Both the position numbers and the translations under genes were made by a program. A stretch of 64,000 nt of DNA from Bosea sp. Tri-49 (GTDB lineage: Bacteria > Pseudomonadota > Alphaproteobacteria > Rhizobiales > Beijerinckiaceae): assembly GCF_003952665.1 (NCBI RefSeq), contig NZ_CP017947.1, forward strand, positions 372,001 through 436,000. Reading direction: 5' to 3'. The first letter of the stretch is position 1. Every line of letters starts with the position of its first letter. The notes beneath the pieces were generated by a model. That model saw nothing but the letters and a program-made list of their open reading frames with translations, was not told where the DNA came from and searched no databases. Shown in pieces: positions 5,931 through 34,953 of the stretch.

Positions 5931-5955
5931 GGAACCGGCAGCCTCGCGGCGCGTT
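5931..5955 (+). promoter_or_regulatory. EcfG-type promoter of candidate RNA 1
   Basis: GGAAC at 5931-5935, a 16-nt spacer and CGTT at 5952-5955. The next feature downstream is a terminator at 5986-6017, not a gene. Confidence 0.7.
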
Positions 5956-5962
5956 TCCGAAG

Positions 5963-6017
5963 CCTCCTTTGACCAAGCCAACTCAGCCCCGCTGGCAGCC
6001 GCCAGCGGGGCTTTTTT
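5963..6017 (+). ncRNA. Candidate ~55-nt stress RNA 1
   Basis: The transcript is predicted to start about 8 nt after the EcfG -10 and to end at the terminator, with no plausible coding frame. It shares TTCCGAA, AAGCCAA and the order of hairpin and T-run with a second unit at 7094-7147. The distance from -10 to the end of the T-run is also nearly equal (62 and 61 nt). It could instead be an attenuated leader of the downstream stress genes. Prediction only. Confidence 0.4.
5986..6017 (+). terminator. Rho-independent terminator
   Basis: A perfect 11-bp stem (GCCCCGCTGGC / GCCAGCGGGGC, loop AGCC) followed by six Ts. It lies between two divergent genes, so it cannot end a normal upstream gene on this strand. 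Confidence 0.8.
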
Positions 6018-6024
6018 CGTTCAG

Positions 6025-6049
6025 GGAACAAGTTTTCTTTGCCGTCGTT
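6025..6049 (+). promoter_or_regulatory. EcfG-type promoter of the PepSY/GSP17M pair
   Basis: GGAAC at 6025-6029, a 16-nt spacer and CGTT at 6046-6049, 44 bases before the next start codon. It is a second EcfG match, just after the terminator at 5986-6017. Confidence 0.75.
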
Positions 6050-6093
6050 TCCTCACGCAGTGGCCTAACCTGCTCTAGATTAAGGAGATACCC

Positions 6094-6393
6094 ATGCGCA
6101 ACGTGCTTGTCGCGTCGATCTTGTGCGCCTTCGTTGCAACTGCCGCGCTCGCGCAAACATCGACAACTTCGCCGACACCTTCGCCAAACGCGCCGGCCGA
6201 CGCAAACGCCCCGCTTCCGGGCGCCAACAGCTTCACCGAAGGGCAGGCCAAGAGCCGCCTCGAAGCCAACGGCTACACGAACGTGACCGACCTGAAGAAG
6301 GACGACAACGGCGTCTGGAAGGGCAAGGCCACCAATGCCGGCGCCCAGGTGAACGTCTCGGTCGATTACCGCGGCAACATCGTCAAGAACTGA
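6094..6393 (+). CDS. Exported PepSY-like small protein
   Basis: The 99-residue product has a Sec signal (MRNVLVASILCAFVATAALA, cleavage after ALA), a low-complexity T/P/A linker and a PepSY-like fold of about 55 residues: SFTEGQAKSRLEANGYTNV, DLKKDDNGVWKGKA, VNVSVDYRGNIVKN. PepSY-type domains are found in peptidase inhibitors and exported envelope proteins. AAGGAG lies 8 bases upstream of the ATG. It is followed closely by the GSP17M gene, and the EcfG promoter upstream suggests stress control of both. Confidence 0.7.
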   Translation: MRNVLVASILCAFVATAALAQTSTTSPTPSPNAPADANAPLPGANSFTEGQAKSRLEANGYTNVTDLKKDDNGVWKGKATNAGAQVNVSVDYRGNIVKN

Positions 6394-6428
6394 TCGCCCC
6401 CTGTCCGCCACGATTTTTGGAGAACTCC

Positions 6429-6971
6429 ATGACCCGCACCATCACCCGTTCTTACGACGACTACGACACCGCCCGTTCGGTCGTCGAGCAGCTTGAGACC
6501 TCCGGGATTTCAAGCAGCAACGTCAGCCTAATGGGTCGCAACGGCGATACGGACGAGTCCAACGCCGGCGAGGGCGCCGGGATCGGCGCTGGCGTCGGCG
6601 GTGCAGCCGGCCTGCTTGCTGGTCTCGGCCTGCTCGCCATTCCGGGCATCGGCCCGGTCGTAGCCGCAGGCTGGCTAGCGTCAACAGCTGCCGGCGCCGT
6701 CGCCGGCGCGGCGGCTGGCGGTCTGGTCGGCTCCTTCATCAAGGAGGGCCACGACGAGGACGAAGCAAACTACTATGCCGAGACCGTCCGGCGTGGCGGC
6801 TCGGTGGTGTCGGTTCGCGCCGAACCAGCGCAGGAGGCCGAAGTCGAGGCCATCCTTGATGGCGCGACCCCGATCGATCGCCACACCCGCATGGCGCAGT
6901 ATCGCCAGGAGGGCTGGACGCGCTTCGACGAGAAGGCCGATCCGTACCTGCGCGGGCAGGCCGGCATCTGA
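6429..6971 (+). CDS. General stress protein 17M-like (YflT-type) protein
   Basis: The 180-residue protein starts MTRTITRSYDDYDTARSVVE, the entry of the heat-induced stress protein YflT/GSP17M domain. It then carries a long Gly/Ala helical hairpin (GAGIGAGVGGAAGLLAGLG and GAVAGAAAGGLVGSF) and a second alpha/beta half ending in RRGGSVVSVRAEP and a tail. The hairpin suggests membrane association. GGAG precedes the ATG. It lies 35 nt after the PepSY-like gene under the same EcfG promoter and ends at a strong terminator. The molecular role of the family is unknown. Confidence 0.75.
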   Translation: MTRTITRSYDDYDTARSVVEQLETSGISSSNVSLMGRNGDTDESNAGEGAGIGAGVGGAAGLLAGLGLLAIPGIGPVVAAGWLASTAAGAVAGAAAGGLVGSFIKEGHDEDEANYYAETVRRGGSVVSVRAEPAQEAEVEAILDGATPIDRHTRMAQYRQEGWTRFDEKADPYLRGQAGI

Positions 6972-6988
6972 CTAGGTCTCCGCTCAAA

Positions 6989-7020
6989 GGCCTCCGGAGT
7001 TCGCTCCGGAGGCCATTTTT
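6989..7020 (+). terminator. Rho-independent terminator after GSP17M gene
   Basis: An 11-bp perfect stem (GGCCTCCGGAG / CTCCGGAGGCC, loop TTCG) with a run of five Ts. Confidence 0.9.
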
Positions 7021-7061
7021 CTGAGGTGACTAGCGCTCTTAGCTTCAGCCCGAGAGAGTTG

Positions 7062-7086
7062 GGAACCGGCCTCGCCGTTCTGCGTT
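7062..7086 (+). promoter_or_regulatory. EcfG-type promoter of candidate RNA 2
   Basis: GGAAC at 7062-7066, a 16-nt spacer and CGTT at 7083-7086. As with the promoter at 5931, it is followed within about 30 nt by a terminator and no coding frame. Confidence 0.7.
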
Positions 7087-7093
7087 TGATCAA

Positions 7094-7147
7094 CTTCCGA
7101 AAGCCAAACTCTCGGCCCTTCTGGCACCCGCTGGGAGGGCTTTTTTT
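7094..7147 (+). ncRNA. Candidate ~54-nt stress RNA 2
   Basis: Predicted from the EcfG promoter to the T-run. Its hairpin region (GCCCTTC, then CTGGCACCCG, then GGAGGGC) and preceding AAGCCAAACTC align with candidate RNA 1, while the stem bases differ in a partly compensated way. This suggests two copies of one structured RNA. Prediction only. Confidence 0.4.
7115..7147 (+). terminator. Rho-independent terminator
   Basis: A 7-bp stem with one G-U pair, a 12-nt loop and seven Ts. On the minus strand it has an A-tract before and a short T-tract after, so it could also end the small gene at 7152-7253. Confidence 0.7.
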
Positions 7148-7151
7148 GGAG

Positions 7152-7253
7152 CTACCGACCCAGTGTCGCCGCTTCCATGATGATGCAACAACCAAGTGCA
7201 ACAGCAGCGAGCGCGATGAGGTAAAGCCAGCTCTCTCCCGGCAGCCTCCTCAT
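7152..7253 (-). CDS. Small single-pass membrane peptide (33 aa)
   Basis: Reads MRRLPGESWLYLIALAAVAL and then GCCIIMEAATLGR: a short basic N-terminus and one transmembrane helix. The frame stays open upstream to 7403, but that extension is polar and unlike a real protein, so the ATG at 7253 is preferred. The ribosome-binding site is weak. Third tiny one-span peptide of this region. Confidence 0.4.
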   Translation of the reverse strand: MRRLPGESWLYLIALAAVALGCCIIMEAATLGR

Positions 7254-7386
7254 GACATATTTCCAGTGATAAGCGCGCCTATGGTCCGGAATGATGCCGT
7301 TTTCATCGCTCCAAACCTTCGGAGGGTTCAATGGCTCGGGCGGCAATCGTACACGCGATGGCCGCGCCCCAGAGAGAGGCACCTGC

Positions 7387-7599
7387 ATGTCGCTGAACGG
7401 CACGATTTTGAAGCTAGCGCATCACTACACGGAGCCTGCGGAATTGCTAAAAGCGGTTCGGAAGAAGCACCCGGAGGCGTCTAAGAAGGACATCATCCAC
7501 GCCGCACTCCGGACAATGATTGAGGCTGCCGAGAGCAAAGAAGGGGTCGCAGCCCATCTCCACCGACTGGTGATGGATAATCGCGGCGGAGACTTTTGA
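7387..7599 (+). CDS. Hypothetical helical protein (70 aa)
   Basis: Starts MSLNGTILKLAHHYTEPAEL behind AGAGAGG, and continues with basic and acidic helices (RKKHPEASKKDIIHAALRTM) to a TGA. Probably soluble and all-helical; no family recognised. The frame is open back to 7291, where it would begin MMPFSSL, the same leader as two minus-strand genes nearby. That start has no good ribosome-binding site. Confidence 0.5.
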   Translation: MSLNGTILKLAHHYTEPAELLKAVRKKHPEASKKDIIHAALRTMIEAAESKEGVAAHLHRLVMDNRGGDF

Positions 7600-7712: not shown

Positions 7713-7931
7713 TCATAGGGTTTCTCGGAATCGCCCGATTGCGCGCCGGGCCAGATCGTCTTCGTCGTTCGCAATGGTCGCCAAGCTGGCGACGATCTGG
7801 GCTAGTCGTGTTCGCTCTCGGTCGCGGCGTGCGTCGGGCAGCGTCGCTCTAATTTTGTCCCGCGCGGTGTCGAGCGCCGCGCCGGCACGAGCAAGGTCGA
7901 CCGGGTCGCTCAGCGACGAGAACGGCATCAT
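7713..7931 (-). CDS. MPFSSL-family small protein, copy 1
   Basis: A 72-residue helical protein with the core ERTRLAQIVASLATIANDED and DLARRAIGRF. It is clearly paralogous to the gene at 8913-9125: same leader MPFSSL-DPV, same GAAL, same C-terminal DLARRAI-RF. Soluble, function unknown. Confidence 0.55.
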   Translation of the reverse strand: MMPFSSLSDPVDLARAGAALDTARDKIRATLPDARRDRERTRLAQIVASLATIANDEDDLARRAIGRFRETL

Positions 7932-8912: not shown

Positions 8913-9125
8913 CTATCTCGCCAGGAAACGATCGATAGCGCGCCGAGCGAGGTCGTCCTCGTTCACTGCGAGCGTCACCAAGCTGGCCACGATATAGGCC
9001 AATCGAGTTCGTTCACGCTCATCACATTGATCTGGCAGCGTTGTCCTGACCTCTTCCCATGCGGCCTTCAGTGCCGCGCCAGCCCAAGCCAGTTTCACTG
9101 GATCCGTCAGTGATGAGAATGGCAT
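8913..9125 (-). CDS. MPFSSL-family small protein, copy 2
   Basis: 70 residues starting MPFSSLTDPVKLAWAGAAL and ending DLARRAIDRFLAR, paralogous over its full length to 7713-7931. The central motif ERTRLAYIVASL is the best conserved part. Helical and probably cytosolic; function unknown. Confidence 0.55.
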   Translation of the reverse strand: MPFSSLTDPVKLAWAGAALKAAWEEVRTTLPDQCDERERTRLAYIVASLVTLAVNEDDLARRAIDRFLAR

Positions 9126-10258: not shown

Positions 10259-10294
10259 TGAGTCGCCGTTCTGTTGCGTTCGGTGGTGTTAAGT

Positions 10295-11339
10295 ATGGCG
10301 AGGCAGCCGCGTCGCGTCTTGAGGGCTATGCCTGCCGGCGAGGTGGTGAGCAGCCCGCCAGTCAAAGCGCGTCGCGGCGCTGCCAAGCCCGATCTCTTCG
10401 CAGAACCGATGCCGGCACGGATTGAGCCCTGCTTGGCTCTCCTGCAGTCGAAGGCGCCGACAGGGCCGGACTGGGCCTTTGAAGTTACGTGGGACGGCTA
10501 TCGCCTGGCGGTCCATCGTGACGCTGGCGGCGTGCGGATTATCACCCGCGGCGGCCATGACTGGACGCATCGCTTCCCCTCGATCGCGGCTGAGGCGGCT
10601 TCATCCTCGACGCTGGCAGCTTCATCCTCGATGGCGAGGCGGTGGTGCTCGACGGAGCCGGCCGAGCCGATTTCGGCTTGCTGCAGCAGGCGCTCGGCGG
10701 TCGCGGCGGCAAGGCGAACGCCGAGCGCGCCATGCTCTACGCCTTCGATTGCTCTATCTCGACGGTCACGACCTCACCCGAATGGCGCTGAGCGAGCGCC
10801 GCGACATGCTCGAGGGACTGCTGGCCGGCGAGACCGGGATGATCCGGCTGAGCGAAGAAGTCGAGGCTGACGGGGCGGCGTTCCTGGAACAGGCCTGCAA
10901 GCTCGGGCTCGAAGGCATCATCGCCAAGCGCCGTGACGCGCCCTATAGCCCCGGCCGCGGCGGCGATTGGCTCAAGATCAAATGCATCCAGTCCGACACC
11001 TTCCTAATTATCGGCTATGAGCCATCCAGCGCGGCGCTTGGCGGCATCGGCCGGTTGCTGCTGGCTGGCCATGGCAATTACGGCCTGGTCTATGTCGGCA
11101 GCGTCGGCACCGGCTTCACTCACACGAGCGCAACGGCGCTGCGCAAGCAGCTCGACCGGATCACGGCAGCTTCGCCGCCGGCGCGGGGCATCGGCACGAA
11201 GGGCGTGGTCTGGGTGAAGCCGAAGTTCGCGGCCGAGATCGCCTATCGCGGCTGGACCCATGACGAGAAGCTGCGCCATGCGTCGTTCAAAGGCCTACGC
11301 CATGGAGCGGACAAGACTACCGTCTTCCGGCTGTCCTGA
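10295..11339 (+). pseudogene. ligD: ATP-dependent DNA ligase (LigD ligase domain), decayed
   Basis: Three frames together encode a LigD-type ligase module. The first holds GPDWAFEVTWDGYRLAV and ITRGGHDWTHRFPSIAAEA; the second FILDGEAVVLDGAGRADFGL; the third LYLDGHDLTRMALSERRDML, EGIIAKRRDAPYSPGRGGDW and the OB-fold part to WTHDEKLRHASFKGLRHGAD. The first break is near 10600, where GCTTCATCCTCGA is duplicated; the second is a one-base loss near 10750. The adenylation motif reads EVTWDG where the family has EVKWDG, so the catalytic lysine (codon at 10487) is Thr. The product could not work even if the frames were joined. No polymerase or nuclease domain and no Ku gene is seen nearby. Confidence 0.8.
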
Positions 11340-11939: not shown

Positions 11940-13245
11940 GTGTGGATGGCTCCCGCGTGGCAAGGGTAATGTGAGGTTTCGGCGTCGTGGTCGGGTGCAG
12001 TCTTGTGTCCGGCCTGTCAGCGCGATCATGGACCGCTGGCCCTGATGGTTTCCGCAGACGAGGTCCCATTCTGCTTTGCGGGCTAAGACGCCCTGGACCT
12101 TCACGCAGGTTGTCCTCGTCCCGGTCTGACCGGTTCGCCATCACTTCACATGGTCCTCACAACTACTGAAGCGCTCCTCGTGGCTGCGCTGATAGGCGAG
12201 TTTGCTATGTGGCTGAGGACTCCCGCGCGCGGTAAACCTCGCCGCGTACCATGATGGCCCAGATCGCCCGCGCCGATCGGTTGGCCATGGCGACGGTGGC
12301 CAGCCGCACCGGCTTGCGGGCGAGCAGGCAGCAATGCGCGGATCGGCGGCTTCTGGATGGTGCAGGTTGCGCCGGACGAGGGCCGTCATGCCCGTGACCA
12401 GCAGCCATCTACTGATCACCCATCTTGGATATTCGGCCGAGCCGCTCCTTGCCGCCGCTGGAGTTGTTGAGCTGGGTGAGGCCAAGCCACGCGGCGAACT
12501 GGCGACCGGAGCGGTACTGGGTGGAATCAGTCACGGTCGCGGCCAGGGCGGTAGCGCCCAGCAGGCCCACGCTCGGCACGATGGCGATACGCCGGGCCAG
12601 ATCGTTGGAGCGATGCCAGGCCAGAAGATCCCGCTCCAGTTGCCGGATGCGGTGCTGTCCCTCGGGGGCCTGCTCGGCCAAGGCTCCGATCACCTTGGCC
12701 GCCAGCTGTGGGACCTCGTGGGCCTCGCCCGCGACGACCCGTCGGACGAACGCCGGGGAGTGGGTGATGCCCTTGGGGGGATGTCGACGCCGAACTCCGC
12801 CAGCAGACCCCGGATCATGTTGACCAACTGGGTGCGCTGCTTGACCAGCAGGTCGCGCGTCCGGTGCAGCTATAGCGCGCCTGCTGCTCGACCGACTTGA
12901 TCGGCACGAACCTCATGGTCGGGCGGGACACCGCCTCGCAGATCGCTTCGGCATCCCCGGCGTCGGTCTTGCCGCGCTCGACGTACGGCTTGACGTAGGC
13001 CGGCGGCATCAGCCGCACTTCGTGGCCCAGGCGGACCAACTCCCGAGCCCAATGGTGGCTCCTCCCGCAGGCCTTGATCCCGAGCAGGCAGGGCGCAAGC
13101 TTGCTGAAGAACGGGATCATCTGCGCCCGTTTCAGGGCTCGGCGGATACGACTTCACCCGTGCTGCTAATCGCATGGACCTGAAAGACGGTCTTGGCCAG
13201 GTCGAGGCCGACGGTGGTAATCTCCATAGCGGGTGGCTCCCAAAG
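11940..13245 (-). mobile_element. Decayed IS110-family element, IS1111 group
   Basis: Contains the broken transposase at 12205-13227, almost no sequence between its start and the MFS fragment on one side, and about 265 bases of non-coding DNA after its end. A long 3' non-coding end is the layout of IS1111-group elements, where the bridge RNA is known to be encoded on that side. Both boundaries carry a similar 11-bp string (GGGTGGCTCCC at 13231 and GGATGGCTCCC at 11944, same orientation). Exact ends are not proven. Confidence 0.6.
12205..13227 (-). pseudogene. IS110/IS1111-group transposase, multiply frameshifted
   Basis: It begins MEITTVGLDLAKTVFQVHAI, the DEDD-type (RuvC-like) N-terminus of IS110 family enzymes. 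Later frames give KLAPCLLGIKACGRSHHWAR, EVRLMPPAYVKPYVERGKTD, AEAICEAVSRPTMRFVPIKS, then VPSVGLLGATALAATVTDST and AAWLGLTQLNNSSGGKERLG, the C-terminal serine-containing Tnp domain. At least three one-base indels break it, near 13145, 12870 and 12780. The element can therefore not move by itself. Confidence 0.8.
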
Positions 13246-13529
13246 TCGTGGTTTGCATCCCGAGCGCGACGGCCCTGAATAGGACGAGCATTCGCAGGTA
13301 TGTCGTCGAAGCGAGCCTCCGCCCCGCCCTGGTAAGTGGGATTGCGCCCACGAACCTGGGCGAGCGTGAAGGCCAGGATCATCGCCGCGCCGCCGCTTGT
13401 GTCGCCCGTCAGCGCCAGCGCGACAAGGGCGAACGCGACCGGTCCCGCAGCCTGAGGTACAGCGAACGTGGCGGACGAGACGTACCAGCGAAGCAACCCC
13501 GCCGTACCTGATGTCGTGGAAGTCGCCAT
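13241..13529 (-). pseudogene. MFS transporter N-terminal fragment
   Basis: Starts MATSTTSGTAGLLRWYVSSA and runs through FAVPQAAGPVAFALVALALT and GGAAMILAFTLAQV. After a one-base insertion it continues GAIPLTRAGRRLASTTYLRM. This is the first 85-90 residues of a major facilitator transporter, cut off exactly where the IS1111-type element begins. The remainder of the gene is not found on the far side of the IS, so the insertion was followed by deletion. Confidence 0.6.
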
Positions 13530-13797
13530 GGCCTGCCCCGAAAGTAAGGGCCGGGCCGTTCCCGGACATTGCTAATCCCGCTTGAGATCGAGGCCGTTAC
13601 CTCGCGGCGCGTACTCGGCGATGTTCGATGCCCTGTCAACGATCGCGCATGCAGATCCGCTATAACGTCGGGGCTTAGCGCACGGAGGGTCGGGCAGTGG
13701 TCGGATGTCTGCTTTGTGCAATGGATTGAGTGTCAGCAAATGGCGCTTCACCGCCTTCGGCAGGCCGAAGCTGAGGTTCTTCTAGTCGCCCGATGTT

Positions 13798-28961: not shown

Positions 28962-31900
28962 ATGCTGAATCAAGAAATCGGGCAGCCTGTGAGCGGTGAC
29001 AGCGAAGCGCCGCCATCGGTTACAATCGATGCAGCAGTCGCTAGAAGCTTCACGTATGCTTCCTATCAGAACGCGGTCCCGGTCTTAAGATCACTCGCGA
29101 TTGCAAATCCAACCGATAGGCACTTGGAACAGTGCCGGCTGGCGATGGTATCGACCCCGGCCTTCCTCCGCCCCAAGCTCTGGACGCTCGCCTGGTGCCC
29201 GGCGACCGCATCACCATCAGCGATAAGCGGGTCGAACTTGATGCTGGCTATTTGGCCGGTCTGGACGAGGCGGAGCGCGGCGAAATCACGTTCCGACTCT
29301 ACTCGCAGGACGCGTGCCTGGCCGAAGTCCGGTTTCCCGTACGGCTTCTGGCACGCGATGAATGGGGTGGTGTCGCCGACATGGCGCAACTGCTGCCGGC
29401 GTTCGTGCTCCCCAACGATCCGGCAGTCCCGAAGATCCTACGCGCTGCGGCCGAGTCGTTGACGGCGCATGGGCATCCTTCGGGACTCGACGGCTACCAA
29501 TCGGGCGATCCCAAGCGAAGCCTGCTGCTGACGGCGGCTGTCTATTCTGCCATCGCCGGGATGAAGCTGCACTATGCCGAACCCCCGGCGAGCTTTGAAC
29601 AGCGCGGCCAGAAGGTTAGGCGCCCATCGACAATCGCTCGGGATAAGCTCGTGACCTGCCTCGACAGCTCCCTGCTGTTCGCCGCAGCCCTAGAAGGCTG
29701 CGGGCTGAACTCGGCCGTGCTGCTCTTCAAGGACCACGCGGCCGTCGGCGTCTGGCTGACGAAACGGACCTTTCCGAGAGCGGTGGAAAGTGACCTAACG
29801 GAAGTCCGTAAGGCTATTGCCGCTAGAGAGCTCGTCGTCTTTGAAACGACCGGAGTGACGCATCGGCCGGTTGCGACACTGGACCACGCTCGCCGGCTCG
29901 CCGAGTCGCGGCTCGCCGAAACCCAGGCCTCAGGCTTCGAAGCGGCGATCGACCTGCACAGGTCGCGCAGCGGCGGCATCACACCGCTCGCCTCACATCG
30001 TGCTCCGGTCCCTGTTGCGGAGGAGGCGCAGGATGGCGACATCCAGTTGCCGCTTTCGGTTGCGGCGGAACCGTCCGATCTTCCGGCGGAGGTCGTTGAG
30101 CTCAAGCCGACCACTGCCGCAGGGCGCATCGACCGTTGGCAGAAGAAGCTGCTCGATCTCACGCTACGCAACCGGCTGCTCAATTTCGCCGACTCCAAGA
30201 AGACGAGCCTTTCCTTTGCACCGATATAGCCTATCTCGAGGATAGGCTTTCGGAGGGTGCTGCGATGCGGCTGATCTCGCTGCCGGAGCATAATCCACTC
30301 GGCCAACGCGACGAGGCCCTTTATCGAGAAGTGCGCGGCCAGGATTTGCATCGTGGCTTTGCGGCGGATGCGCTCGCGCGTGGCGAACTCACGTCGCCGC
30401 TGGACGCCAAGAACCTCGACGCGCGGCTGATTGAGCTCCATCGCCAGGTCCGCAACGACTTCGCCGAGGGCGGAGCAAATACACTCTTCCTCGCTGTCGG
30501 GTTCCTACGCTGGAAGCGCATGCCCGGCGATGAGCGAAGCTATCGTGCGCCACTTCTGCTTTTGCCGGTGAAGCTCGACCGGCGCAGTGCGAGCTCACAG
30601 TTTACGCTACGTTTCCACGAGGACGAGCCGCGCTTCAACGCGACGCTACTGCAATTCCTGGAGCGCGAGTTCGATCTCTCGCTGCCGCAGTTCGCTGGCG
30701 AGTTGCCGCAGGACGAGAACGGCATTGACGTGCCGCGTCTGCTTGGCGCGATGCGCCAGGCGGTCCGCGACGCGCCCGGCATGGAAGTTGTCGACGACGC
30801 TGCGCTGTCGACCTTCTCCTTCGCGAAATACCTGATGTGGAAGGACCTCGTTGAACGGACCGACGCGCTGCGGCAGAATCGGATCGTACGTCACCTGATC
30901 GATACGCCCGAGCAGGCCTTCTCTGGATCCGATGATGCTTTCGTCGATGAGCGCGAGCTCGACGGGCGCTATGCGCCGGCCGACATCGTCTCGGTTCTGC
31001 CGGCCGACTCCTCGCAGATCGCAGCCAGCATGGCCGCAGTCGAAGGGCGCGACTTTGTCATCATCGGCCCGCCCGGTACGGGAAAGAGCCAGACGATCGC
31101 GAACATGATCGCGAACTGCCTGGCAAGCGGTAAGACGGTGCTCTTCGTTGCGGAGAAGACCGCAGCTCTGAACGTCGTGCACCGCCGCCTGAAGGCGCAT
31201 GGGCTGGGCGACCATTGCCTCGAACTGCATTCGAACAAGGCGGATCGCAAGTCGTTTCTCGCACAGCTGCGGACCTCCTGGGAGAAGGGCCGCGCGTCCT
31301 CGTCCTCCGACTGGGTCGCCGTCAACCATCGGCTGAAGGTGAGGCGAGACGTCCTGAACGCCTATGTCGAGGCGCTCCACCAGCGCCATGCCAATGGCCT
31401 GACCGCCTATGCCGCGCTCGGCGTCGCCTTGCGCGACCGCCATCGTCATGCTCCCGAGTTGTCCTGGTCGCATCGCGATCTCCATGATGACGAGGCGCGG
31501 CGAGCACTCGGCGACCTCACCGAGGAGGTAGGCCGCGTGTTCGCGGCCGTCGAGCGCGCGCCGGTCCTCGCCTGCGTCGATGCTCCCGAATGGTCCTCGG
31601 CCTGGCAGGAGCGCCTGCTGGCGACGGGGCGCGACCTTGCGGGAAAAGTTACCACCCTCGGGACGGCGCTCGCGGCGTTTCTGCCGCAACTGGGACTGTC
31701 GGCATCCAGCGATGCCTCAAGCACGGAGCTGGAAAGGCTGTCTCTCCTGGCCTCCGCCCTCTGTGAGAGCGTCGGCAGCGACCAACGCATCACGTTCGAT
31801 CCCGACTTCGCGGGCCTTCGCCAGGCGCTCGCCGAACTCGAAGGCTCGATCACCTCCTATCGGACTACGGAAGCGGAGCTCTCGGCGACGTTCGCGCGTG

Positions 31901-34900
31901 ATTCGGTCGTTCGGATCCCTCTCGACGATCTGGAGCGCGACTGGCGCGAGGCCGGCGCCGCCATCTGGCCGCGCAGTTGGCTGGGACGCCGGCGGGTGAA
32001 AAAGCTGCTGCATGGCTATGCCGCTGCCGGCCAGCCCAACCCAGACAAGGATCTGCCTATCCTGCGCCGGTTGCAGGCGCTCCGCTCGTCGGTCGAGAGC
32101 TGCAGTCTTGCGGGCAAGCCACTCGCCTTTTCCGGCCTCGATACCGATGTGTCGGCAATAGACCGCCATCTCTCCGGCGCGACTAAACTTCGCGACAGCT
32201 TGCTGCGGCTCGGACGCGCGGCAGACGATATCCGCGCGGTCGTCAAAGCTATCGCGCCGGTGCTCGTCCCGAGCATTGATGCTGAGCCGGTCCGGCTGAC
32301 TGCCGTCGCTTATCGCGATGCTTTCGCCGCCTTCTCAGTGGCCATGGCGCAGTTCGCCGCGGCCGCGGGGTCGGACCCGTCACGGTCTACCAGCGAGACG
32401 CTGCTGTCCGACCTTGTGGGAATGACTGATCAACTCGCGGGTGCTCGCCAACTGCTGCGCGATTGGACGAGCTGGTGCCGGGTCAGGGCGCAGGGCGAGG
32501 CGCAAGGTCTCGGCCCACTGATCGCTGACCTACAAAGCGGCGCGCTCAGCCCGGACGAAACGCGGTCGGCCTTTGATCTCGCCTATGCGCGCTGGTGGCT
32601 GCCCCACGCTCTCGACACGAATGCGACGTTACGCGATTTTCGCCGCTTCCAGCACGAACACGCCGTCGAAGAATTCCGCGAGATCGACGATCTCGTCCGC
32701 GCCAAGGCGACCGCTCGTGTGGTGAGTGCCCTTGCGCACGGTTTGCCTCCGGTCCAGAGCGTGCCGCGCAACTCGGAGCTCGGTCTACTGCGTCACCAGA
32801 TGGAGCTGCAGCGACCGAGCCGCTCGATCCGCGAGATGATCGGCGGAATGTCAGGCAGCTTCGGCAAGCTCGCGCCCTGCATGTTGATGTCGCCACTGTC
32901 GATCGCGCAGTATTTCCCGCCGGATCAGGCGCTGTTCGACGTCGTAATTTTCGACGAGGCCTCACAGATCACCACCTGGGATGCCGTTGGCGCGATCGCA
33001 CGGGCAAAGCAGACGATTATCGTCGGCGATCCCCGCCAACTCCCACCGACGAACTTCTTTGGTCGCAACGAGGACGACGAGGAGGTCGCCGAGCATGAAC
33101 GGGACCTCGAGAGCATCCTGGATGAGGCCAAGGCCGCCGGGATCCCAGTCCGCGACCTGCGTTGGCATTATCGCAGTCGCAACGAATCGCTTATCGCGTT
33201 CTCCAACGCGCATTACTACCAGAACAGGCTGATCACCTTCCCTGCACCGGAGGTCGAGGACCGGGCGGTCAGGCTGGTGCGGGTCGATGGTGTCTATGAC
33301 CGCGGCAAGAGTCGAACGAACCGCACGGAGGCCCGCTCACTAACCGATGACGCGGTCCAGCGCATGAAAGACTGGTTGAAGCTGCCCGAAACGAGCCGGC
33401 CAACGCTGGGGATCATCACCTTCAACGCGCAACAGCAGGCGCTGATCCAGGATCTGCTCGACGAGGCACGCCGCCATGAGCCGGCGCTCGAATGGTTTTT
33501 TGCCGAGGATCGCATCGAGCCAACCATCGTCAAAAACCTCGAGAACGTGCAGGGCGACGAGCGCGACGTGATTCTGTTCTCGATTACCTTCTCGAAGGAT
33601 GCCGCAGGCAAGCGCACGATGGATTTCGGAGCACTCAATCGGGACGGCGGCGAAAGGCGCCTCAACGTGGCAGCGACTCGAGCACGGCAAGAGCTCGTGG
33701 TGTTCTCCGGCTTCAGCGCCGACGATATCGATACCGGCTGCACCAAGGCGGTCGGCGTCCAGCATCTCAAGACGTTCCTCGACTTCGCCGAGCGCGGCGC
33801 GATCGCATTGCCAGCGCAGGACAAGGGATCGGTCGGCGCGCTTGAATCTCCATTCGAGGAGGCGGTTGCAGCGGAGCTGACCCGCCTCGGCTGGCAACTG
33901 GTTCCCCAGGTCGGCATCTCCGGCTTCAGGATTGACCTCGGCGTGAAGCACCCCGACCGCGCCGGCGCGTTTCTCGCCGGCGTCGAATGCGATGGCGCGA
34001 CCTATCACAGTGCGGCGACCGCCCGCGATCGGGACAAGGTGCGGGAGCAGGTGCTGCGCGGGCTTGGCTGGAACATCGTCCGCGTCTGGTCGACCGATTG
34101 GTGGTTTGATCTGAATGGAGCCACCATCCGCCTTCATGAGGCGTTGACTGCCCTGCTAGCGGACAGCCGGGCGAAGGACGCCGAGCAGGCATCCAATCAA
34201 ACCTTGCATTGGGAGCTTGGCGACGAGGTAGATTCTGTTCAGTCGACGGCGGACGTGATTGAACTCGAGGTAGCGCACATAGAGGGCTCGATGTCGCCAA
34301 TGGGTCCCGTCAACTCCGTCCCTGCCGCTGAGCTTGCAGCCGACGTCATGGCCGAGACGGAATCTCAGCCCGTTAGGCTGGCCGCCGCTGGCACCCGGCT
34401 CGGCACACATTCTCAACAGACCGGTGATGCGCCGCGCTATGGCCTGACGGACCTCTCACGATTCCGGGCGGAGCCGAATATGTTTCACGAGTTCGGCTAC
34501 CGCGCCACTCTACGCGGCATGGTCGATGCCGTGATGGAAACAGAGGCGCCGCTGCGCGAGGAGATCCTGGCGCAGCGCATCGCTCGCGCCCACGGATGGC
34601 TGCGCACGGGCGGTAAGATCCGCGAGCGCATCCAGCTACATCTGCGCGACCTTGAGCGCACGAGCGAGTCCAGTGGTGAGTTTCTGTGGATACCGGGTAC
34701 GATCGTGCCGATCCATCCCTATCGCGCGCCGGTCGATGTCGAGGCGCGCCGAGGCATTGCAGATATCCCGCTCGCCGAACTCGCCAGTCTTGTCGTCGCC
34801 GAGCCCGCCCTATTGGAGGAGACCGATCCTGCGCTGGCATTGGCGCGCCTGTTGGGCGTCGAGCGGCTGGCGGCGACATCGCGAGCGCGACTGGACGAGG

Positions 34901-34953
34901 CCCTCCGGCATGCATCCACCCGTCTTCAGTCGGTCGAAGCAGATGGCCAATAG
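28962..34953 (+). pseudogene. DUF4011 helicase-endonuclease, frameshifted in two places
   Basis: Reconstructed as one gene of about 1,990 codons. Frame A starts at ATG 28962 behind GGGAG and gives the N-terminal strand-rich part with NAVPVLRSLAIANPTDRHLE. A one-base loss near 29190 moves to frame B (RLVPGDRITISDKRVELDAG, then RIDRWQKKLLDLTLRNRLLN, the DUF4011 start). A second one-base loss near 30205 moves to frame C, which is open to 34953. Frames B and C may be translated separately, or the indels could be sequence errors. The same large protein occurs in other bacteria, frequently in defence or mobile regions. Confidence 0.7.
30136..34953 (+). CDS. SF1 helicase with PD-(D/E)XK nuclease and DUF3320
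   Basis: The longest intact piece of the broken gene. Residues up to about 300 finish DUF4011. Helicase motif I is IGPPGTGKSQTIANM, II VVIFDEASQI, III GDPRQLPPTNFF, then LRWHYRSRNESLI, VQGDERDVILFSI and LNVAATRARQELVVF, the Upf1/Dna2-like (COG1112) set. A Vsr/MTES_1575-type nuclease follows (EEAVAAELTRLGWQLVPQVG, FRIDLGVKHPD, GVECDGATYH, VRVWSTDWW), and DUF3320 closes it (FHEFGYRATLRGMVDAVMET). It probably unwinds and cuts DNA or RNA. Without the upstream frames, the start of DUF4011 is missing. Confidence 0.75.
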   Translation: MAEEAARSHATQPAAQFRRLQEDEPFLCTDIAYLEDRLSEGAAMRLISLPEHNPLGQRDEALYREVRGQDLHRGFAADALARGELTSPLDAKNLDARLIELHRQVRNDFAEGGANTLFLAVGFLRWKRMPGDERSYRAPLLLLPVKLDRRSASSQFTLRFHEDEPRFNATLLQFLEREFDLSLPQFAGELPQDENGIDVPRLLGAMRQAVRDAPGMEVVDDAALSTFSFAKYLMWKDLVERTDALRQNRIVRHLIDTPEQAFSGSDDAFVDERELDGRYAPADIVSVLPADSSQIAASMAAVEGRDFVIIGPPGTGKSQTIANMIANCLASGKTVLFVAEKTAALNVVHRRLKAHGLGDHCLELHSNKADRKSFLAQLRTSWEKGRASSSSDWVAVNHRLKVRRDVLNAYVEALHQRHANGLTAYAALGVALRDRHRHAPELSWSHRDLHDDEARRALGDLTEEVGRVFAAVERAPVLACVDAPEWSSAWQERLLATGRDLAGKVTTLGTALAAFLPQLGLSASSDASSTELERLSLLASALCESVGSDQRITFDPDFAGLRQALAELEGSITSYRTTEAELSATFARDSVVRIPLDDLERDWREAGAAIWPRSWLGRRRVKKLLHGYAAAGQPNPDKDLPILRRLQALRSSVESCSLAGKPLAFSGLDTDVSAIDRHLSGATKLRDSLLRLGRAADDIRAVVKAIAPVLVPSIDAEPVRLTAVAYRDAFAAFSVAMAQFAAAAGSDPSRSTSETLLSDLVGMTDQLAGARQLLRDWTSWCRVRAQGEAQGLGPLIADLQSGALSPDETRSAFDLAYARWWLPHALDTNATLRDFRRFQHEHAVEEFREIDDLVRAKATARVVSALAHGLPPVQSVPRNSELGLLRHQMELQRPSRSIREMIGGMSGSFGKLAPCMLMSPLSIAQYFPPDQALFDVVIFDEASQITTWDAVGAIARAKQTIIVGDPRQLPPTNFFGRNEDDEEVAEHERDLESILDEAKAAGIPVRDLRWHYRSRNESLIAFSNAHYYQNRLITFPAPEVEDRAVRLVRVDGVYDRGKSRTNRTEARSLTDDAVQRMKDWLKLPETSRPTLGIITFNAQQQALIQDLLDEARRHEPALEWFFAEDRIEPTIVKNLENVQGDERDVILFSITFSKDAAGKRTMDFGALNRDGGERRLNVAATRARQELVVFSGFSADDIDTGCTKAVGVQHLKTFLDFAERGAIALPAQDKGSVGALESPFEEAVAAELTRLGWQLVPQVGISGFRIDLGVKHPDRAGAFLAGVECDGATYHSAATARDRDKVREQVLRGLGWNIVRVWSTDWWFDLNGATIRLHEALTALLADSRAKDAEQASNQTLHWELGDEVDSVQSTADVIELEVAHIEGSMSPMGPVNSVPAAELAADVMAETESQPVRLAAAGTRLGTHSQQTGDAPRYGLTDLSRFRAEPNMFHEFGYRATLRGMVDAVMETEAPLREEILAQRIARAHGWLRTGGKIRERIQLHLRDLERTSESSGEFLWIPGTIVPIHPYRAPVDVEARRGIADIPLAELASLVVAEPALLEETDPALALARLLGVERLAATSRARLDEALRHASTRLQSVEADGQ

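Follow-up and report, generated by a model that had tools for sequence, protein, structure and literature searches.

The locus: two EcfG-type promoter-terminator units and their neighbors

The window, that is, the whole stretch of 64,000 nt analyzed here, corresponds to positions 372001-436000 of C2 (454 kb), one of the two contigs (C1 and C2) of the 6.45-Mb genome of Bosea sp. Tri-49 (G000; other G numbers designate other Bosea genomes). It contains two compact plus-strand units, named u1 and u2. u1 starts with a sigma-EcfG-type promoter (GGAACC-N15-CGTT, 5931..5955) and ends with an intrinsic terminator (5985..6017; stem of 12 pairs at 5985-6012). u2 has the same arrangement, with its promoter (GGAACC-N15-CGTT) at 7062..7086 and its intrinsic terminator at 7114..7147 (stem of 12 pairs at 7114-7141). 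The T-runs end at 6017 and 7147, 62 and 61 nt past CGTT, respectively, and the coordinates that an earlier, sequence-only reading had assigned to both units proved exact. Assuming a transcription start at the typical distance of 6-7 nt downstream of the -10 box, the predicted RNAs measure ~55 nt (5962..6017 for u1, 7093..7147 for u2). The u1 body carries the stretch CCTCCTTT (5963..5970), which we take to resemble the anti-Shine-Dalgarno end of 16S rRNA, and the core TGACCAAGCCAACTC (5970..5984), a candidate pairing seed, while the u2 body reads CTTCCGAAAGCCAAACTCTCGG. In the predicted folds, both RNAs end in a strong terminator hairpin at the 3' side and are mostly single-stranded in the 5' body, with a weak 5' hairpin in some type-1 units (the relatives of u1, see below).

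Two genes of the same strand lie between u1 and u2. The first codes for a 99-aa PepSY-domain protein (6094..6393; PF13670, 29 bits, cut-off 24.3) and has a separate EcfG-type promoter (6025..6049, plus strand) beyond the u1 terminator. The second codes for a 180-aa YflT-like/glycine-zipper general stress protein (6429..6971; PF11181, 25 bits, just below the cut-off of 26.2), several homologues of which are annotated 'general stress protein' and the five top-ranked relatives of which are from Bosea, and a terminator (6989..7021, plus strand) parts this gene from u2. Past u2, a gene oriented opposite to the units encodes a 72-aa protein (7713..7931, minus strand) without Pfam or NCBIfam match. 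Searching the genome with this protein gave 15 matches, in part incomplete, one of which lies 74-867 nt from each of the five unit clusters of this genome; a paralogue is found at window positions 8913-9125 (minus strand). Further along, we noted by eye plus-strand ORFs like an ATP-dependent DNA ligase of the LigD type, split over frames (10274-11339), and overlapping minus-strand ORFs resembling a broken IS110-type transposase (12141-13640).

u1 and u2 have relatives in five Bosea genomes

To search 67 Bosea genomes, we combined BLAST queries, each consisting of a unit with its promoter, with a covariance model built on the promoter-free transcript (R1). This search revealed 14 related units in 5 of the 67 genomes, seven of which are in the studied genome (five on C2, the second replicon, and two on C1). 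Nine units are of type 1 (u1, C1:1539276, C2:52023, C2:338065, one in G022, one in G066 and three in G012) and five are of type 2 (u2, C1:1538149, C2:11355 and two in G038). On C1, the whole block u1-PepSY-YflT-u2 is present a second time, with proteins that are 98% identical. The units do not always accompany the PepSY and YflT genes, since a Bosea plasmid bearing the same gene pair shows no unit when searched with the core pattern; in the plasmid collection, neither unit alone was matched. Several family copies adjoin stress genes.

All 14 units carry GAACC-N15-CGTT with a single spacing, in agreement with the EcfG-type consensus GAAC-N16,17-C/GGTT (PMC4814048). The longer form GGAACC occurs in 12 of them, the near-identical C2:11355 and G038 copies having TGAACC instead, and boxes and spacing are identical in 9/9 type-1 units. 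CTCC is present in 8/9 type-1 units; the exception, one of the G012 copies (G012c), counts against the interpretation that we favor below.

R1 hits with E below 1e-10 had the promoter in 13/13 cases, scores and promoters that are not fully independent as 13 of the 14 units came from BLAST and served to build R1. The remaining unit, G012:C5:3919 (E 7e-8), was detected by the promoter-free model yet carries the promoter, and we consider it a further real member. Conversely, a full-length hit in G066 (C1:2927737, E 1e-7) that retains part of the core has no EcfG promoter upstream, which likewise counts against the favored interpretation. At E<=0.1, R1 matches terminators in 57/67 Bosea genomes. 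Among 27 weaker hits examined, five fit a loose promoter pattern, and GGAAC..CGTT was found in three (G012:C5:3919, G029 and G007); the rest, the full-length G066 hit among them, lacked it.

Beyond Bosea, we sampled 298 genomes from its taxonomic family and 397 from its order, two partly overlapping sets searched with stricter filters, and accepted no member in either; two order-wide hits (E 2e-6 and 4e-6) were discarded as the 150 nt upstream contained no EcfG-type promoter. Rfam 15 returned no family at the gathering cut-off, the best near-miss on u1 scoring 20.7 bits where 45 would be needed.

A 15-nt core is conserved in type 1 and the kinship of u1 with u2 is suggested

We compared five divergent type-1 copies region by region. 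Promoter boxes were 100% identical and the spacer 66% (shuffled 56%), the first part of the body reached 62% (shuffled 50%), its last 15 nt 93% (shuffled 61%) and the stem 92% (shuffled 65%), while the 60-nt flanks remained at 62 and 61% (shuffled 58 and 61%); as the copies were found through whole-unit similarity, the conservation inside the units is partly a product of how the copies were chosen, and the flanks are free of that bias. The sequence-only reading would have been contradicted if only the terminators were conserved. For type 1, this is not the case, as the core is conserved as well as the stem between flanks near the shuffled level. Furthermore, a model restricted to the body and its sequence, with the terminator left out (R2), which matches positions 5957-5985 of u1, retrieved the nine type-1 units with E values from 2e-6 to 0.011, the next match in the 67 genomes being at 0.24. 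Because these nine units are also the training set of R2, this gap indicates that the body is specific and does not add new units.

Type 2 comprises two distinct sequence groups, the bodies of which agree well (0/2000 shuffles as good); R2 did not reach type 2. When whole transcripts were aligned, u1 and u2 scored better than 1000/1000 shuffles, and promoter plus body, set against 2000 shuffles, outscored 98% of them in local and every one in global alignment. With the body alone, shuffles equaled the score in 5% (local) and 21% (global) of cases, so that the resemblance of u1 to u2 rests mainly on promoter and terminator. Likeness of the terminators counts little, since Bosea genomes often carry terminators of the GCCCCGCTGGC type. 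The type 2b unit C2:11355 forms a partial bridge, its body being equaled by shuffles against u1 in 6% (local) and 4% (global). Sequence comparison thus only suggests a common family for u1 and u2.

The shared features that had first drawn attention to the pair fared unequally. AAGCCAA is common to u1 and u2 and in register. TTCCGAA had to be dropped as a shared motif: it overlaps the -10 box in u1 and lies ~10 nt further in in u2, and hence is not homologous, the alignment setting CTTCC of u2 against CCTCC of u1. The stems do differ in a partly compensated way, with one C-G to U-A and one G-C to U-G change plus one-sided wobble changes. The two-sided changes, common to three u2-type sequences, probably represent a single switch.

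Promoter and terminator together exceed the chance expectation

Across the whole genome, GGAAC-N15-18-CGTT occurs 185 times versus 293 for the reversed pattern. Being rarer than its reversed control, a lone promoter match therefore means little. In the window, promoter plus terminator was observed twice, and 0 times in 300 dinucleotide shuffles. We then scanned, blind to the body, 1.65 of the 6.45 Mb (C2 in full and, from C1, three pieces of 400 kb, of which one was picked because the C1 copies lie in it): this gave 8 hits, of which 6 belong to the family, versus 1 with reversed boxes, and a looser promoter gave 9 hits in the same 1.65 Mb, 7 in the family, versus 0 in the control. In the 67 Bosea genomes, the EcfG promoter followed by GGSCTTTT was found 33 times compared to 14 for the control. 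Combined with GCCCCG within 24-52 nt, the promoter showed no excess (123 vs 171 for the reversed control).

The units are best read as stand-alone small RNA genes

Could the units be the 5' part of longer stress transcripts, in which the gene downstream is controlled by regulated read-through at the terminator? Some locations invite this interpretation. At C2:52 kb and in G022, G066 and G012, a type-1 unit ends 218-222 nt upstream of hsp20 (PF00011), and the C2:11355 and G038 units end ~74 nt before a same-strand homologue of the 72-aa protein gene. However, the downstream genes vary (PepSY, hsp20, 72-aa gene) and mostly seem to have promoters of their own, which is against a leader role: the PepSY gene has its EcfG promoter past the u1 terminator, and CTTGAA-N16-CCAAAT, which resembles an alphaproteobacterial RpoH promoter, lies between unit and hsp20 in 4/4 loci. 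Past u2, the minus strand carries both the closest ORF (7152-7403) and the 72-aa gene, and a plus-strand ORF starts only at 7291. Given these separate promoters and the opposite-strand ORF nearest u2, the units do not form leaders of a single gene type, the short gap of 74 nt at C2:11355 and in G038 notwithstanding. Moreover, the consensus fold consists of the terminator stem only. We thus regard a leader or attenuator as unlikely. A leaderless or very short ORF giving a small peptide is far less probable still. TTG, GTG or ATG triplets do occur near ACCAAGCC in several copies, but their frames differ between copies, and by eye no ribosome site precedes them inside the short transcript. The type-1 bodies measure 25-30 nt and a single nucleotide is deleted in the C1 copy of u2; with such variation, no reading frame is kept. 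The earlier statement that no coding frame lies within the units must therefore be reworded: none is kept among the copies, but mechanically called ORFs do cross both (5969-6286 and 7026-7484, plus strand).

The sequence of the RNA could also be incidental, promoter and terminator acting as a sigma-factor sink or an insulator with a functionless body. The poor conservation of the first part of the body, set out above, would agree with this, as would a target search that found none in the leaders sampled (see below). In contrast, a 15-nt core conserved like the stem, although the flanks are near the shuffled level, is hard to reconcile with an incidental sequence, and we hold a sink or insulator to be improbable.

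Promoter, terminator, family, conserved core and lack of a kept reading frame are features of the sequence itself; transcription, EcfG dependence, base pairing and repression are inferred from them. The best reading, and a fairly likely one, is that the units are independent, multicopy, ~55-nt EcfG-driven small RNAs acting by base pairing. We hold trans-acting base pairing itself to be somewhat more probable than its absence. When the PhyR-NepR-EcfG switch is on, sigma-EcfG would initiate transcription of each unit, and the intrinsic terminator would stop it ~61 nt past the -10 box, which would make each unit an independent gene whose product is a non-coding RNA of only ~55 nt. The conserved body (CUCC..UGACCAAGCCAACUC in type 1, CUUCCGAAAGCCAAACUC in type 2) could then act in trans by pairing with mRNAs, with CUCC covering their Shine-Dalgarno sequences, and so lower translation under stress. 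Of the components of this switch, we searched for NepR, which serves as anti-sigma factor in the general stress response and is encoded at C1:4218004. On the sequence side, the proposal of a small RNA family tied to the general stress response is thereby well supported, through 14 units with kept promoter, body core and terminator and through the presence of NepR; its assumption that u1 and u2 form one family is only suggested.

We looked for targets by contiguous complementarity of the cores to 1405 gene leaders (1.65 Mb, 26% of the genome), using 15 shuffled cores each, and neither core had more or longer complementarity than the shuffled ones. The top type-2 hit (window position 30245) was rejected as it apparently falls inside a disrupted DUF4011/helicase gene and not in a leader. 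This large plus-strand gene (~30150-34950; DUF4011, AAA helicase, MTES_1575 nuclease and DUF3320) appears disrupted near its start. Duplex energies computed for u1 and u2 with nine leaders, two of them from C2:52 kb, placed 4/18 pairs below 0.05 of the shuffles, uncorrected. The lowest fractions, also uncorrected over 18 pairs, were 0.004 for a homologue of the 72-aa gene and 0.024 for hsp20, both with u1. These values are a lead at most. In G000 and G022, CCUCCUUUG of the u1-type RNA matches the hsp20 site CAAAGGAGG. Co-variation of the two partners was considered and rejected: in G012 both seem altered (CUCCAUGG and CAAUGGAGG, respectively), and in G066 the mRNA is altered and the RNA is not.

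Other repeated EcfG-promoter units

Repeated units with bodies unrelated to the family, most of them with a terminator, follow EcfG promoters in other Bosea genomes. The body ATGCCAGTCCCAC occurs four times in G024, with a terminator found by the scan for three, and CACCTGYMTCTSGTTTCACC has two occurrences in G001 and a single one in G007. In the studied genome, a second look-alike pair (C2:56719 and C2:336353, the latter on the minus strand) has the body GCGTTTCACTCGCAA..GTCAAAG, with a terminator for the first only, from one of two scans.

The strongest hits of the family-wide search came from another genus of the same family (g9), which has its own multicopy EcfG-promoter/terminator group with up to five BLAST matches per genome. 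Among 30 loci examined of the 64 matches listed, 25 were readable and 8 of these had an EcfG-type promoter just upstream: 6/7 readable near-full-length matches and 2/18 others, one of these through a looser box. One could imagine, tentatively and with the odds somewhat against it, that the general stress response of Bosea, and of one or more further genera of its family, acts through swarms of multicopy EcfG-driven RNAs (~55-70 nt), which would differ from lineage to lineage and turn over rapidly while retaining promoter, short core and terminator. No layer of this kind appeared in the portions of the literature searched. Protein genes are what the alphaproteobacterial stress switch is mainly known for, and follow-up of EcfG-driven RNAs has been rare. 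Being compact and multicopy and having a conserved core of 15 nt, the family offers a direct and cheap test of whether the switch in Bosea has a small RNA arm as well, and the family model can be carried to relatives.

Comparison with known small RNAs

The sequence-only reading had tentatively likened the units to GsrN of Caulobacter in role, with no claim of a sequence relation. GsrN is sigma-EcfG-dependent and uses a pyrimidine-rich 5' part, an exposed C-rich loop, for pairing (PMC5869019). The Bosea units share its promoter class, and their own 5' part may be a counterpart of that loop: CUCC is present in 8/9 type-1 units, and a weak 5' hairpin is predicted in some. BLASTn hits of GsrN are confined to Caulobacteraceae and its homologues typically lie by the GSR locus, C. 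crescentus excepted (PMC5869019). In contrast, the Bosea units are multicopy and far from NepR: they lie at C1:1.538-1.539 Mb and on C2, NepR is at C1:4218004, and no member of the family is found in C1:4.1-4.5 Mb. Thus, the proximity to the GSR locus that is typical of GsrN is not seen here. GsrN is also longer than the ~55-nt Bosea units. The Bosea family is not GsrN, from which locus, copy number and length set it apart.

Several small RNAs carry an anti-Shine-Dalgarno-like stretch. SmelA075 and SmelA099 of Sinorhizobium meliloti are CCUCCUCCC anti-Shine-Dalgarno RNAs with the motif in several hairpin loops (PMC3927594), and CcsR1-4 of Rhodobacter are processed from a 3' UTR (PMC8307010). 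Both groups are, like the Bosea units, multicopy and stress-linked and have a pyrimidine-rich stretch of this kind. CcsR1-4 carry a CUCC motif. Unlike either group, the Bosea type-1 units have a single CUCC, a mostly unpaired body and their own promoter, and CCUCCUCCC is absent from 14/14 Bosea units. SisA-D of Caulobacter are siblings sharing a 10-mer with an anti-Shine-Dalgarno signature (PMC12559287); they resemble the Bosea units in having several siblings and this type of signature, a likeness of description and not of sequence, and that paper makes no mention of SigT or GsrN.

In S. meliloti, sigma-E2 motifs have been described upstream of 23 small RNAs, with microarray support for eight intergenic regions including SmelB126 (PMC3616915), which has 4, 3, 2 and 5 copies in four strains and a typical terminator (PMC3927594). 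Among these RpoE2 (sigma-E2)-dependent RNAs, SmelB126 combines, like the Bosea units, a stress-sigma promoter, multiple copies and a terminator; it belongs to another genus and is likened to the units by description, not by sequence. A literature search on Bosea small RNAs gave nothing related by title. EcfG-driven small RNAs and multicopy ones are thus already known from Sinorhizobium and Caulobacter, and the Bosea family itself looks new.
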